The notes below the pieces were generated by a model, which searched no databases, was not told where the DNA came from, and saw only the letters and a program-made list of their open reading frames with translations. This document shows positions 3,545 to 14,627 of a stretch of 64,000 bases of DNA, piece after piece (position 1 is the first letter of the stretch; each line of letters opens with the position of its first letter). Position numbers and translations under genes: made by a program. The DNA comes from a virus. Where the stretch lies: IMG/VR virus record IMGVR_UViG_3300025815_000010, positions 1 through 64,000 of that record; one strand, given 5' to 3'.

Positions 3545-4338
3545 TAATCATTCCCACCTAATATTTCGTTGATCGCAACTTCTTGAATAGCTTCGCCGGT
3601 ATCAAAATCGCCAATGAATGCAGTCGAGCCCCTTTGAGATCCCGCAGACCATGGGAAGAGAGAAGCGTCTGCCCCCCATGACGGTGCTGCTGCCTCTGCG
3701 AAATCTTGCCTACGATCATTAACTTTTTGTACATCTCGTGTTCTCGGATTGCCATTTGCTCTATTTGCGGAAAGCTGTACAGCTTCTGACTTCTCCCACC
3801 CAAGGGTGTGCTGGTGCAGGACAGAAAAGCCAATACTTAATGTGATAAGCTTTGGATAAAGCTTGTTCACAGGGTCGAAAAACCCTTCTTTAATGTTTGG
3901 GTTCCACCGTAAATTGTTTATAACACCAAGCAAGCCACAAGTCCTGACATCTCCGTCAAAGCCCCTAGATGCATCGAATATAAGATTAGCAAATTTAATC
4001 TTTACAAGCGGCCCCTTAGAGATAGTAGAAGCACTGTCAACTCTAGAATACTCTGGATACAACATTCTTGTTAGAGTCGAGGTTTTTTGTAAGTTTCCTA
4101 TTGAATCCTGTAGACTAAAGGCAGGAATTTTCCAGCTTAAATCGATATTTCTTTGTGTGCCTTGATAAGTTTGTATAGGATCCGGTCTCCCTAGCACTGG
4201 CTGAGGGTTCCACCGACACTGGAAGCTCTCTGTATACGTCTCTAAGAAAGCTTTGAAAGATACTTGAGCACCAGAAAAAGTCTGATAGAATTCCAAGACT
4301 TGTCCTTTTCTCTCTAATGTGTCTGTAGGATCATACAT
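3544..4338 (-). CDS. Probable tail-tube cap or baseplate protein
   Basis: A 264-aa soluble protein with no signal peptide or membrane segment. It has a beta-rich middle (QRNIDLSWKIPAFSL, GPLVKIKFANLIFDAS, LYPKLITLSIGFSVLHQ) followed by a low-complexity, Arg/Asn-rich stretch and a short acidic end. Its place between the tape measure gene and the gp53-like gene is where contractile phages encode tube-initiator or cap proteins (T4 gp48/gp54 class). The alternation of strands around a GLLGVINNLRWNPN turn fits a tube-like fold. The role is inferred from position and general appearance. I do not recognise a specific family. Confidence 0.5.
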   Translation of the reverse strand: MYDPTDTLERKGQVLEFYQTFSGAQVSFKAFLETYTESFQCRWNPQPVLGRPDPIQTYQGTQRNIDLSWKIPAFSLQDSIGNLQKTSTLTRMLYPEYSRVDSASTISKGPLVKIKFANLIFDASRGFDGDVRTCGLLGVINNLRWNPNIKEGFFDPVNKLYPKLITLSIGFSVLHQHTLGWEKSEAVQLSANRANGNPRTRDVQKVNDRRQDFAEAAAPSWGADASLFPWSAGSQRGSTAFIGDFDTGEAIQEVAINEILGGND

Positions 4339-4353
4339 TATGATTTCTCCTTA

Positions 4354-5892
4354 CTATGGTGCATCAAGTGCTGCCACTCTGGCATCTATCTCTTTCCCAT
4401 CTAGGAATATTTGGAATCTGTAGACGGGCTGCCCTTCGCTATCTTTTTGTACTTTCCCTGCTTCTCTGTCTCTAGCTGCTATGGATTCACCTTTTATTTT
4501 TTCTAAGTTTTCAGTCGTAACGCCCATCTTGGCCCCTATGTTAGTGAGCATATCGTTAACAATTTCAAGGGCAGCACTAATACCTTCGTTTCCAACAACC
4601 GCGTTTCTAAGATTCTCTGCTGATTCAATGGCTGGTGTGAATGTGTTTTGGTTAACTACATCAAGTTTTTGAGCAATTCCATCTACCCCAAGAGCGACAT
4701 CTTCAAGGATTTGCATATTATCTTGGGTCGTTCTCCTTTTTTGCGCTTCGTCCGAAAGTTCAGATTGAGATTTTGCCACGGCATCGGTCGTATCAATAAG
4801 ATCATTAAAACCCCCATCTAAAAGCTGTGTTAGCTCTAGGGCATTGTTAATGCCTGGAGTTGCCGCTACAAATGCCTGTATTTGTCGTCTAGACATATTT
4901 TCGACGCTTACCCCAGCATCTTGAAAAGCTTGTGACAACATCTGCATTCTTTCTACGGGCGTCTCTGCCATTGTTAGTTCAACAGAGTTTAGGAACGGCC
5001 CACCCAATAGGGCATTAAGTTGCCCAACAGCCTGTGTAGAACCTTCAAATGTGTCTGTAAGATTAAACACTTCTTGAAATTTACTAAATTCTAAACCTGT
5101 TGATTTTGCGGCTGCTGCTGTTTGGCGGAAAACTCGTTCTGCCTCTGAACCAAACATTAGCATACTTGGCATTTGTGTGTTAAAGGTTGTAAACATCTCT
5201 TGAGACGTAACGCCCAATTCTTCTGCAAAGTTTTCCAATCCAAGTGTAGAGCGGACAATAGAACCCTCTGACTGGTTAAGTCCTTTTCTAAGAATCTGGA
5301 ATGTTGCTGCTGTTGTTTCAGAACCAATCCCAACAGCCTCAAGAGCTACTGCTGCATCTGCCAGAGCGGTCTCGGCTGGACTTATGCCTCCTTTCGTAAA
5401 ATCAGTAAATGTTTTTGTAAGATTAGTATATACATCGCCCATCTCCGCACCGGACAGGCCGAATTCTCTATTCCTAAAAGTAGCATCTATAATTTTTTGA
5501 TTGTATTGCCCAGCAAAACCAGTGCCTTGGTTAAACGACCTAGCTGACTCTAATTGGTCTCTTATCACTCTCCGAGTAGCACCAGCGAGCCCTCCGAGTT
5601 CTCCCTCAAGCAACGCTATCTGTGTTTTGTAAGCCACCACGCCGCCAACTCCAGCAGTAAATGACTCCATCTGCTCCTCAGTGGCTCCGGTGGCATCCAT
5701 AATAGCTGCCTTGACCTGATCAAATGCGGTACCTACGTCAGTAAAATTTGTTACTGTATCAAATATACTTTGACCAAATTGTGTAATAGTATCTGTAGCA
5801 CTCTTAAATGACGTAGTCAAATCGTCAACCTGTTGCTTGGTCACGGTTATCCCTTGAGCACTGAGTAGTTGCATTATTTGATTTGGATCCAT
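4354..5892 (-). CDS. Tail tape measure protein
   Basis: This 512-aa protein starts with a Gln/Thr/Ser-rich helical region (MDPNQIMQLLSAQGITVTKQ) and is predicted to be almost entirely alpha-helical, with Ala/Gly/Thr-rich heptads through residues about 20-400. The segment VGQLNALLGGPFLNSVEL is the kind of conserved hydrophobic patch I associate with tape measure proteins of marine myoviruses. It occupies the canonical slot: tube gene, tail assembly chaperone with frameshift, then tape measure. Family rulers set tail length by stretched helix, so 512 residues (T4 gp29 has 590) suggests a tail somewhat shorter than that of T4. A weak copy of the recurring promoter-like motif lies 18 nt upstream. 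Confidence 0.75.
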   Translation of the reverse strand: MDPNQIMQLLSAQGITVTKQQVDDLTTSFKSATDTITQFGQSIFDTVTNFTDVGTAFDQVKAAIMDATGATEEQMESFTAGVGGVVAYKTQIALLEGELGGLAGATRRVIRDQLESARSFNQGTGFAGQYNQKIIDATFRNREFGLSGAEMGDVYTNLTKTFTDFTKGGISPAETALADAAVALEAVGIGSETTAATFQILRKGLNQSEGSIVRSTLGLENFAEELGVTSQEMFTTFNTQMPSMLMFGSEAERVFRQTAAAAKSTGLEFSKFQEVFNLTDTFEGSTQAVGQLNALLGGPFLNSVELTMAETPVERMQMLSQAFQDAGVSVENMSRRQIQAFVAATPGINNALELTQLLDGGFNDLIDTTDAVAKSQSELSDEAQKRRTTQDNMQILEDVALGVDGIAQKLDVVNQNTFTPAIESAENLRNAVVGNEGISAALEIVNDMLTNIGAKMGVTTENLEKIKGESIAARDREAGKVQKDSEGQPVYRFQIFLDGKEIDARVAALDAP

Positions 5893-5926: not shown

Positions 5927-6104
5927 TTAGATTTTATTTCTGCCTACTTCGTCTTCTTTTTGTTTTATAAGGCGTTTAACGAACCATCTACGTATGGCAA
6001 TCGGGAGCGAATAAGACTCTGCGAATGACCAATTGCCATAGTAGCTCAAGAAGAAAAACTCTTCATACATGGACTCTACGTAGTTTTCAGGAAGGCCAAA
6101 AAAA
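5927..6104 (-). CDS. Frameshift-encoded C-terminal extension of tail assembly chaperone
   Basis: A conserved-looking frame follows the chaperone gene in the +1 frame. It reads GLPENYVESMYEEFFFLSYY, then GNWSFAESYSLPIAIRRWF, then VKRLIKQKEDEVGRNKI and a TAA stop. Entering it from the seven-T run in the chaperone's last codons gives a 328-aa fusion (272 + 56 residues). Translation from its internal ATG (position 6070) would give only 47 aa, and that ATG has just a weak GAG upstream. The sequence meaning continues upstream of that ATG (GLPENYVES is protein-like), which favours a frameshift over an independent gene. It sits exactly between tube and tape measure genes, where gpG-GT type frameshifts occur in many tailed phages. 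Confidence 0.65.
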
Positions 6105-6914
6105 GTCGATACCTAGTGGCACCGCCCTGACCACTACGTGTTGACAGTTGGGGCACTCTATTCTCTGATCCATATCGAGTGATGGTGTTGCCCTGTCATA
6201 TGCTTTCTTTACTTCTCTAGAATCCATAGCTGGCATGTTATCAATAAAATTCTCTACTTCTTGTCTAGCGCTAATAGAGTTTACAGACACAATAACCATC
6301 TTTAAGAAATCAGTTCTGTTCCTTTCTGGAAGGTTATTCTTTCTATTTGTATCCCTCATGTTCTCTAGATAGGATTGTTGTTTTGCACTGAGAATTCTTA
6401 TCTCTGCTGTAAAGCCAGAACGTGGCAAGACAATACTAAATGTACCAGCTGGTGAAACAGTGAGGTCCTCTGGGACTTCCTTGATAGGAATATTAACCAG
6501 ATCTACAACATGATCATGGTTTGTGCCACACGATGGACATTTAACATTAGAAACATACTCTGGGCCATAACCTGTTGCTCTAGCAGCAATCATGATAGCA
6601 CTCTTGTCGCCAGGATAAAGTGTATTGACATCGATAGAACTATCTACCAACACACTTTGGATAAGCCTATCAATCACAATCCCTCGACTGATGAGAGCTT
6701 GTGAAGTAAGAATATCTTCTTCTTTTGCTGACATATAACGAATCTCCACTTCAGACTTAAGATGAAGTGGGTGCCCCTCAGGATAGAACTTTCCTTGAGT
6801 TGGTAGTTCTACAAACTCTGTTGGGTTAGTGAAGCTCAAAGCTCCACTGAACTGTGGTGTAGGAGGGGCTGCTTGAAGAGCAGCGGTCCTTGCACCATTA
6901 TTTCTCTTAGCCAA
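6087..6914 (-). CDS. Tail assembly chaperone / T4 gp26-type baseplate protein (zero-frame product)
   Basis: A 275-aa protein with the hallmarks of the T4_baseplate (gp26-like) family: N-terminal PTEFVELPTQGKFYPEGHPL, then IRYMSAKEEDILTSQALI, and the motif ARATGYGPEY near residue 111-120. Two CxxC pairs (C126/C129 in CPSC, C254/C257 in CPNC) could bind one zinc ion. It starts at TTG, supported by a GAGG ribosome site 6 nt upstream; no ATG exists near the family-typical N-terminus. The frame ends with ...GIDFFWPS, immediately after the codons GAC TTT TTT TGG, a run of seven T. A +1 slip there would join it to the extension described separately. Its position between tube and tape measure genes matches tail assembly chaperones of other phages. 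Confidence 0.75.
   Translation of the reverse strand: MAKRNNGARTAALQAAPPTPQFSGALSFTNPTEFVELPTQGKFYPEGHPLHLKSEVEIRYMSAKEEDILTSQALISRGIVIDRLIQSVLVDSSIDVNTLYPGDKSAIMIAARATGYGPEYVSNVKCPSCGTNHDHVVDLVNIPIKEVPEDLTVSPAGTFSIVLPRSGFTAEIRILSAKQQSYLENMRDTNRKNNLPERNRTDFLKMVIVSVNSISARQEVENFIDNMPAMDSREVKKAYDRATPSLDMDQRIECPNCQHVVVRAVPLGIDFFWPS
6098..6104 (-). other. Putative programmed +1 frameshift site (T7 run)
   Basis: On the minus strand the codons are GAC TTT TTT TGG. A P-site tRNA-Phe on the second TTT can re-pair perfectly one base forward, because the next base is also T. The following zero-frame codon is TGG (one tryptophan codon), and a stop comes two codons later. The shifted frame reads 56 further codons. 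A -2 slip would give the same frame with one extra Phe. Confidence 0.5.
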
Positions 6915-6930
6915 ATAACACCTCTATTTA

Positions 6931-7530
6931 TTAGTAACTCTGCCCAGGACCCCAATACTTGTTTAGGCCAGGAGCCGGATCTTCTGAGCCTGGACCTGGA
7001 TCTGCCTTGTTCTGCGTCTCAATTGCAGCCCAGTCATATCGGAACTTAGCAGTAAGGGAAGTAAGGCCCTCTTCACCATACTTGAGTGTTCCACCGAAAT
7101 CAACAGATGTGATGAAAGCGTTTGTAAGAGTCCAACGCTCTAGAACGGTACCATCCGAATCAATTTGCTCGATAACAACAGACTGGACAGCATCAACTGC
7201 TTCTCTCTTAGAAATAGTTGTAACATCGTTAACGTTTGTGGGTGGCACATAACCAGAATCAAAAAGAATTCTTGTTAAGTTGATTGAAGCATCTGGGCTT
7301 ACTGGATCAACCAACTCGATTGTTACTTCGTTCCAAGTAACCTTACCGGGATAGTAGAAAGTATGGTTTAAAAACTCATGGCTACTAGGGTTCACTGTTA
7401 CTGATGGTTTGGTAACGGACTTAGCATACCATGTAGCTCCATCAGGCATGGAACCAATACGCACTAGAAATCTAAAATTTCTTTTTGGTGAAACTTGTGA
7501 AGAGGTCCAAAAACCTGCTGAATTTGCCAT
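6931..7530 (-). CDS. gp19: Tail tube protein, gp19-like
   Basis: A 199-aa protein with the pattern of T4-like tube proteins: N-terminal FRFLVRIGSMPDGATWYAKS, then KPSVTVNPSSHEFLNHTFYYP, then KVTWNEVTIELVDPV, ending in a short Pro/Gly-rich tail. Such subunits stack as hexamers to form the tail tube that carries DNA through the sheath. T4 gp19 has 163 residues, so this one has a modest C-terminal extension. The gene follows the sheath gene by 47 nt, with a GGAG ribosome site before the ATG, and precedes the chaperone gene by 16 nt. Tube directly after sheath is the usual order. Confidence 0.88.
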   Translation of the reverse strand: MANSAGFWTSSQVSPKRNFRFLVRIGSMPDGATWYAKSVTKPSVTVNPSSHEFLNHTFYYPGKVTWNEVTIELVDPVSPDASINLTRILFDSGYVPPTNVNDVTTISKREAVDAVQSVVIEQIDSDGTVLERWTLTNAFITSVDFGGTLKYGEEGLTSLTAKFRYDWAAIETQNKADPGPGSEDPAPGLNKYWGPGQSY

Positions 7531-13642: not shown

Positions 13643-14071
13643 TCAGTTAGTAAAGTTATACGTACCAGAGATGTGGCCTTCACCAACCCAGCTGTAAGTT
13701 CCTCCGATATTATGGGCTGTGAGGCGCACAACGCCCATACTACCTTGGCTTGATGTCATGTGGATGCCATAGGACTGGAAAGGACATTCATCAGACTTTA
13801 CATTACTGTCTGCTCCACCGTCATTGTAGAGGAAAAGGCCGCCGACAATGTTGTTGGAGCCAGTGATAGAGACTGTCTGTGTCATGGATGGAGCGGAAAA
13901 GATTTCAAAATAAGCTCCATCGCCTGCCTCTGGCAAGGTTAGCGTAATTGCGCTTGAACCACTGCACACGTAAGACTCTCCAGACTCTGATTGGGTCAGT
14001 GTCTTGTCTGCTGTTACATTCTCGACTCTCTTCCTAGAAGCTACTCTAGCTACTCTTGCTGAACGTGCCAT
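13643..14071 (-). CDS. Small virion protein, paralog of the neighbouring gene (head decoration candidate)
   Basis: I start this 142-aa protein at the ATG reading MARSARVARVASRKRVENV, which has GGAG 8 nt upstream. A longer frame exists upstream (20 more codons), but it would place the coding start over the promoter-like motif. The N-terminus repeats Arg-Ser-Ala-Arg-Val and is shared with the neighbouring paralog, as is the core SGESYVCSGSSAITLTLPEA followed by GDGAYFEIF. The rest is beta-rich with many Gly/Ser/Asn, as in small virion surface domains. It has its own promoter-like motif and is preceded by a strong terminator, so it is an independent transcription unit just after the capsid gene. 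Decoration of the head is inferred from location. Confidence 0.65.
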   Translation of the reverse strand: MARSARVARVASRKRVENVTADKTLTQSESGESYVCSGSSAITLTLPEAGDGAYFEIFSAPSMTQTVSITGSNNIVGGLFLYNDGGADSNVKSDECPFQSYGIHMTSSQGSMGVVRLTAHNIGGTYSWVGEGHISGTYNFTN

Positions 14072-14101
14072 TTGTTTTTCTCCATGATAAAACGTTACAG
14101 T

Positions 14102-14113
14102 ATAAATAGTATT
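14102..14113 (-). promoter_or_regulatory. Promoter-like motif (perfect copy) upstream of second small virion gene
   Basis: Reads AATACTATTTAT on the minus strand, 31 nt before the ATG at 14071. It follows directly after a strong terminator (14130-14162), which argues that transcription restarts here. Confidence 0.55.
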
Positions 14114-14129
14114 TAACTTGCCTAAAAGC

Positions 14130-14162
14130 AAAAAACCCCCAACCGGATGGAAAGGGGCTTAG
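14130..14162 (-). terminator. Rho-independent terminator after first small virion gene
   Basis: On the minus strand AAGCCCC, a 14-nt loop, GGGGTTT and further T residues. The stem is extended by A-T and G-T pairs. It lies about 18 nt after the stop codon of the gene ending at 14181. Confidence 0.75.
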
Positions 14163-14180: not shown

Positions 14181-14627
14181 TTACTGGTCGCCAAACGCTA
14201 GTGTTCCGCCTGTTGCTCTACCAGTACATAGCCATTTAGTGCCGTCGCTGTAGCACTCAAGATAAGAACCAGCTGTACAGCCAGCGCCAAAGGTTACTTT
14301 ATCTTTATTGGCAGCTGATTGACTTAAGGCATCAATCTCGCCCGTGGCAGACTCTTGAACTAAATATCCATCCATTCTAAGGTTTGCCTCACTAGCATTA
14401 ATAATCACAGATTTACCGCCACCGACGACGACACTGATCATAAACTTGAAATAAGCTCCATCTTGCACTGCCGGTAATGTAATGACAACATCGTTTGTTG
14501 CATCAATAAAATAAAGCTCACCAGTCTCAGCAGCTTGGATTGTTTTCGTAGCATCAGCAGACGATGCATCGATTGTCTCAACTCTCTGGCGGCTTGCAAC
14601 TCTAGCCGATCTTGCAACTCTTGACAT
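14181..14627 (-). CDS. Small virion protein, paralog (head decoration candidate)
   Basis: A 148-aa protein starting MSRVARSARVASRQRVETI, clearly related to the next gene downstream (shared Arg-rich N-terminus, and LYFIDATNDVVITLPAVQDG aligned with YVCSGSSAITLTLPEAGDG). The core is beta-rich with a Gly/Ala/Ser-rich end. It lies between the terminator after the capsid gene and its own terminator, with a promoter-like motif 53 nt upstream. Such a monocistronic arrangement beside the capsid gene suits an abundant virion protein. Function beyond that is not visible. No signal peptide or membrane segment is present. Confidence 0.7.
   Translation of the reverse strand: MSRVARSARVASRQRVETIDASSADATKTIQAAETGELYFIDATNDVVITLPAVQDGAYFKFMISVVVGGGKSVIINASEANLRMDGYLVQESATGEIDALSQSAANKDKVTFGAGCTAGSYLECYSDGTKWLCTGRATGGTLAFGDQ

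Follow-up and report, generated by a model that had tools for sequence, protein, structure and literature searches.

Genes 26 and 51 of bacteriophage T4 are a long-standing puzzle of hub assembly. Their products are listed as hub assembly chaperones, of which gp51 is required and yet absent from the particle (PMC3004832). In phage lambda, the tail chaperone pair gpG/gpGT is made from a gene beside that of the tape measure protein by a -1 frameshift a few codons before the stop codon, giving a short form and a low-abundance, C-terminally extended form. According to the review by Atkins et al. (2016), this G-T frameshifting is conserved 'except T4', and the tail frameshift of Mu is -2 (PMC5009743). 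For cyanophages, Sullivan et al. (2010) described a gp51 of only ~20% length, with the similarity in the C-terminal part (PMC3037559); the text of that paper contains no mention of frameshifting. In the open-access literature (most subscription papers being outside this scope), our search brought up no frameshift described for the gp26/gp51 family.

The locus described here belongs to that family and lies on the minus strand of a 64,000-nucleotide stretch (hereafter the window), which is part of a 79,774-base virus record in IMG/VR. It shows the feature of a G/GT locus, that is, an extension in another frame that overlaps the gene end, is conserved and is under selection. From the sequence comparisons given below, we read the gene as coding for a G/GT-type tail chaperone pair, which would be new for the gp26/gp51 family. 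As in lambda, the gene lies beside that in the tape measure position, the shift would fall a few codons before the stop, and the proposed products are a short form and a scarce, C-terminally extended one; the lambda shift differs in being -1, and membership of the same protein family is not established by sequence. The tail frameshifts of Mu (-2) and of the halovirus HSTV-2 (+1, 'very likely') reach the +1 frame like the one proposed here, in other phages.

The chaperone gene and its +1-frame extension

The features of the locus are as follows.
6931-7530, minus strand: tail tube protein, 199 aa, the upstream neighbour (PHROG 4542, tail tube, E 7e-18)
6087-6914, minus strand: short-form chaperone, 275-aa ORF; PF12322 (T4 gp26/gp51 family) tail/hub assembly chaperone
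6093-6107, minus strand: putative recoding site, GAC TTT TTT TGG CCT (zero-frame codons), from nucleotide conservation in 105 non-redundant relatives
5927-6097, minus strand: +1-frame extension, 56 codons (GLPENY...VGRNKI) plus TAA, from same-frame conservation, pN/pS and AlphaFold2
4354-5892, minus strand: gene in the tape measure position, 512 aa, the downstream neighbour; assigned by position only

The chaperone ORF starts with TTG at 6914, preceded by GAGGTG, and stops at TGA (6087-6089); its product matches PF12322 (55.4 bits against a cut-off of 24.5, E 9e-15) and PHROG 150 ('baseplate hub', E 4e-16). It is placed between the tube gene and the tape measure gene, the latter by position only, since the 512-aa product gave no significant family match in Pfam or PHROG; the gene in the same position is annotated as tape measure in immuto, SP-15 and LIS04. 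The 3' end reads ATC GAC TTT TTT TGG CCT TCC TGA, with a seven-T run (6098-6104) inside the putative recoding site, and the +1 frame is open over 56 codons from GGC (6097-6095) to TAA (5927-5929): GLPENYVESMYEEFFFLSYYGNWSFAESYSLPIAIRRWFVKRLIKQKEDEVGRNKI. The sequence-only reading that preceded this analysis had described just such a gene end (GAC TTT TTT TGG, then a stop two codons on) and a 56-codon stretch running from the T run to just before the tape measure gene. Both were found as described, with a gap of ~34 bases between the end of the extension and the ATG of the next gene (5892).

Some further observations were made on the window. The TTG start (6912-6914) is common to the window's own clade (L001, L007, L009), and most other relatives have ATG. 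No tRNA genes were found in the window. Elsewhere on its minus strand, two adjacent genes (13643-14131 and 14181-14627) have similar N-terminal halves with the motifs ARSARVASR, then RVE, then TLPE/TLPA and DGAYF in common, apparently as a result of tandem duplication.

Two IMG/VR scans gave 160 relatives at 32-100% identity, the gene end being reached in 158, and those with complete extensions fell into 105 groups at 90% identity (the non-redundant set). Of the 158 relatives with a readable gene end, 154 have the extension in the same +1 frame, as have 10 further loci from genome assemblies and Streptomyces phages; the same +1 rule fits Bacillus SP-15, Listeria LIS04, Streptococcus GXN1, Microcystis Mel-JY01, the Flavobacterium immutoviruses and LR756508. 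Four relatives depart from this: L036, whose gene is broken; L104, at a contig end; and L070/L071, of one lineage, where (about 3748-3850) the +1 frame meets a stop and the extension follows as an ORF of its own, with an ATG and no clear ribosome site. This lineage offers a natural example of the chaperone pair split in two. An extension encoded as a separate gene, the case that the sequence-only reading had set against itself, thus occurs in the L070/L071 lineage and not elsewhere. Four sequences from other metagenome assemblies (L001-L004) are identical to the window over the chaperone gene, so that the feature is not a one-off sequencing error.

Comparison of 31 disjoint pairs gave a pN/pS of 0.176 for the extension in the +1 frame, versus 1.45 and 1.75 in the other two frames, with 194/126/537 differences at the three codon positions. 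These substitution patterns indicate that, of the three frames, only the +1 frame is under purifying selection, and a +1-frame shift in a T4-type chaperone, as proposed from the window alone, is well supported by such conservation. Moreover, no ATG, GTG or TTG precedes the core domain in 77 of 101 scorable extensions, and no Shine-Dalgarno-like motif was found in the rest. The window's internal ATG, at extension codon 10, had been judged a poor start, and it is one: only AGAG stands upstream, and an Ile codon takes its place in a 96%-identical relative (L005). From selection in the +1 frame together with the absence of start codons, the extension is a protein domain, accessible in most relatives only from the chaperone frame.

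Searches beyond the phage relatives gave little. With the extension alone, tblastn returned nothing relevant and Pfam only sub-threshold matches to DUF6760, of which no mention was found in the open-access literature. The window protein found no relatives in bacterial genomes, and a profile found 11, nearly all on short contigs of metagenome-assembled genomes. In the 595-kb phage LR756511 (L093), a possible extension-like stretch (MDEQFFFLYHLH...) opens directly past a zero-frame stop, and may be a version of the extension with a start of its own.

The short form and the extension were modelled apart with AlphaFold2. The extension was predicted as a helix, a short helix and a long helix (mean pLDDT 93), a model without a useful match in the PDB. 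For the short-form model (pLDDT 91), the HK97 tail assembly chaperone 2ob9 came second in a Foldseek search of the PDB, weakly (E 0.83, prob 0.54), and first by VIA (Z 5.0, rmsd 3.9, 95 of 104 residues), a Z value in the range where a common arrangement is possible. As far as the models go, the weak match to 2ob9 fits a G-type chaperone.

The putative slip site and the proposed shift

In the non-redundant set (n = 105), the site reads TTT TTT TGG in 78 relatives, TTT CTT TGG in 15, TTT CTT TAC in 5, TTC TTT TGG in 4, and TTT CTA TGG, TTT TTT TAC and TTC TTT TAC in one each; all 105 have UUU in frame with U or C as the next base. The sequence-only reading had taken the seven-T run for the signal and proposed an alignment of homologs as a check. 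The downstream frame proved to be conserved (154/158), but the T run as such did not, the constant element being the in-frame UUU plus a pyrimidine, as the relatives with TTT CTT T, TTT CTA T or TTT CGN make plain. This constancy suggests that tRNA-Phe slips by +1.

The codons used here are biased as well. The first site codon is UUU in 100/105, where 75 would be expected from the codon preference of these genes, and the second Phe codon is UUU in 84/84 (60 expected). After the site, Pro is encoded by CCT in 100/102 versus 26% elsewhere, a preference partly due to the +1 frame, where the third base of this codon becomes the second of a Leu codon. For the Asp/Asn codon preceding the run, the third base is C in 69 cases and T in 2, C accounting for 33% elsewhere; a T at this position would create U_UUU_UUU, a -1 heptamer. 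In the Streptomyces-type branch (BRock and its metagenomic kin), where the extension is likewise +1, the site is CTN TTT CGN or CTN TTT CAG in 15/15, the UUU being present in all 15, whereas UUU makes up 49% of the Phe codons of the gene and 36% in long ORFs. UUU_C is thus seen in this branch (15/15) and in the TTT CTT relatives; the window has UUU_U instead. The +1 frameshift of influenza A PA-X takes place at UCC_UUU_CGU, a site class shown by mass spectrometry (PMC3498833), and resembles the Streptomyces phages in a +1 step at UUU followed by C, with UUU_CGN common to both, although it concerns a eukaryotic ribosome and an unrelated gene.

No accessory element was evident around the site. 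Predicted downstream RNA structure was like that of control windows (mean z of -0.34 to -0.56 versus -0.43), an Rfam scan gave no match, and there was no obvious Shine-Dalgarno-like stimulator, upstream third codon positions being unconserved except for the C just before UUU.

We assign a probability of about 0.9 to the reading that two products, a short and an extended chaperone, would arise by a ribosomal +1 slip, as the sequence evidence suggests. Sequence comparison supports the frame of the extension, the selection on it, the nucleotide constraint at the site and the homology between the +1, -1 and two-gene arrangements. The ribosomal shift, its +1 step, its efficiency and the roles of both products, as we infer them, would be as follows. 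The majority of ribosomes would stop at TGA and release the short chaperone of 275 aa. In a minority, the P-site tRNA-Phe, paired to a UUU of GAC UUU UUU UGG (either of the two being a possible place for the slip), would move one base forward and re-pair with the overlapping UUU (UUY in general), so that one U is skipped and the +1 frame is read on. The long product (...GIDFFGLPENY...) would have 328 aa and carry an additional helical domain. On the model of lambda gpG/gpGT, the tape measure would be coated or held by the short form, and the tube (or hub) protein recruited by the long form through its additional domain; both forms are expected to be absent from the virion.

RNA polymerase tends to slip on long T runs, and with seven T in the window a mixed mRNA pool could in principle arise by transcript slippage. 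The relatives with TTT CTT TGG, TTT CTT TAC and TTT CGN, however, keep the frame with T runs of three or fewer, making this explanation extremely improbable. A -2 ribosomal frameshift at the U run would likewise be permitted by the seven-T run, would reach the same frame with one Phe more than the +1 slip, and has a precedent in Mu (PMC5009743). As argued from sequence, it finds no acceptable re-pairing in TTT CTA T (L015, L092) or in CTN TTT CGN of the Streptomyces phages, where the +1 slip pairs perfectly. Of the +1 and -2 steps, which had been offered side by side from the window alone, the relatives with TTT CTT T, TTT CTA T and TTT CGN thus favour +1. A +1 slip from UUU to UUY explains all site variants by a single mechanism; a -2 shift, which we regard as improbable, and transcript slippage explain the T runs only, and the TTT CTT T and TTT CGN relatives fit poorly with slippage and with a general -2 step alike.

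The extension might otherwise be translated separately, by re-initiation or from an internal start, as its ATG-started ORF in L070/L071 and the ATG at codon 10 in the window might suggest. Against this stand the 77 of 101 extensions that have no start before the core domain, the remainder that have no Shine-Dalgarno-like motif, and the loss of the ATG in the near-identical L005. Nor would separate translation, which appears very improbable, account for why UUU, C and CCT are selected at the site.

Relatives with a -1 extension and T4 genes 26 and 51

A +1 shift in a T4-type chaperone had been thought unusual in the sequence-only reading; it turned out to be widespread, and T4 relatives of the cyanophage type have an equivalent in the -1 direction, at U_UUU_UUC. 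T_TTT_TTC stands at the end of the gp26 gene in cyanophages, Vibrio Va3 and Stenotrophomonas Moby, with the extension in the -1 frame. All of 48 distinct cyanophage-type contig ends are -1, with T_TTT_TTC in 45 and T_TTT_TTT in 3, and the base before the run is T in 43/43 -1 relatives (distinct gene ends, under a slightly different counting key). Agrobacterium Atu_ph07 and Pseudomonas PA5oct look -1 as well. The cyanophage gp26 and short gp51 are homologous to the short form and extension described here; they differ in the -1 shift at U_UUU_UUC and in being annotated as two genes, the second called a reduced gp51 (PMC3037559). In the Klebsiella phage 0507-KN2-1 (L098, 1915-2100), an Ackermannviridae gp26-like gene ends GAG ATT TTC ATT TAA, and a gp51-like stretch is found in the -1 frame without a canonical heptamer.

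The relationship between these arrangements was examined by profile comparison with hhalign, whose E-values are pairwise and not those of a database search. The +1 and -1 products match across the junction (E 1.6e-26), and the extensions alone also match (E 2.8e-9). The -1 products (cyanophage/Vibrio/Moby) are collinear with T4 gp51 end to end (E 2.7e-22), whereas the +1 extension matches the C-terminus of gp51 alone only weakly (E 0.011, prob 4%); the link from the +1 extension to gp51 therefore runs through the -1 relatives. Like the chaperone described here, T4 gp26 (208 aa, E 9e-64) and gp51 (249 aa, E 4e-52) are members of PF12322, and the PHROG 150 alignment reaches position 280 of 282 on gp51 and 235 on gp26. 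A maximum-likelihood tree places gp26 and gp51 together (98/97) within a branch that contains most -1 users (100/99); opposite it, the +1 users form a weakly supported group (71/45) next to Atu_ph07 and PA5oct.

T4 thus has in gp51 a protein collinear with the frameshifted products of its relatives, and differs from the locus described here in that its short and long forms come from two genes with no shift needed. The homology across arrangements and the tree together suggest that, in T4, two paralogues, gene 26 for the short form and gene 51 for the long one, most likely took the place of a frameshifted pair. The view of T4 as an exception to the G/GT scheme is probably mistaken. Collectively, we lean towards a picture in which T4 26/51 represent the two forms, short and long, of a G/GT pair whose frameshift gave way to gene duplication, the direction of the shift in each lineage is set largely by the base before the U run (U for -1, C for +1), and UUU_Y is a bacterial +1 class matching the UUU_CGN of eukaryotic viruses.

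Implications for T4-type tail assembly

For genome annotation, these arrangements would mean that pipelines either miss the long product or call two genes, and the truncated look of the cyanophage 'gp51' would be explained. The relatives would also provide many natural variants of a bacterial +1 signal, that is, a slip site without a stop codon, an obvious Shine-Dalgarno element or evident RNA structure. Within one gene family, lineages would shift in opposite directions on nearly the same U-rich site. The G/GT scheme would be widened to the T4-type phages, hitherto regarded as exempt, and a concrete hypothesis may be put forward for the role of gp51, an essential T4 protein that is absent from the particle.
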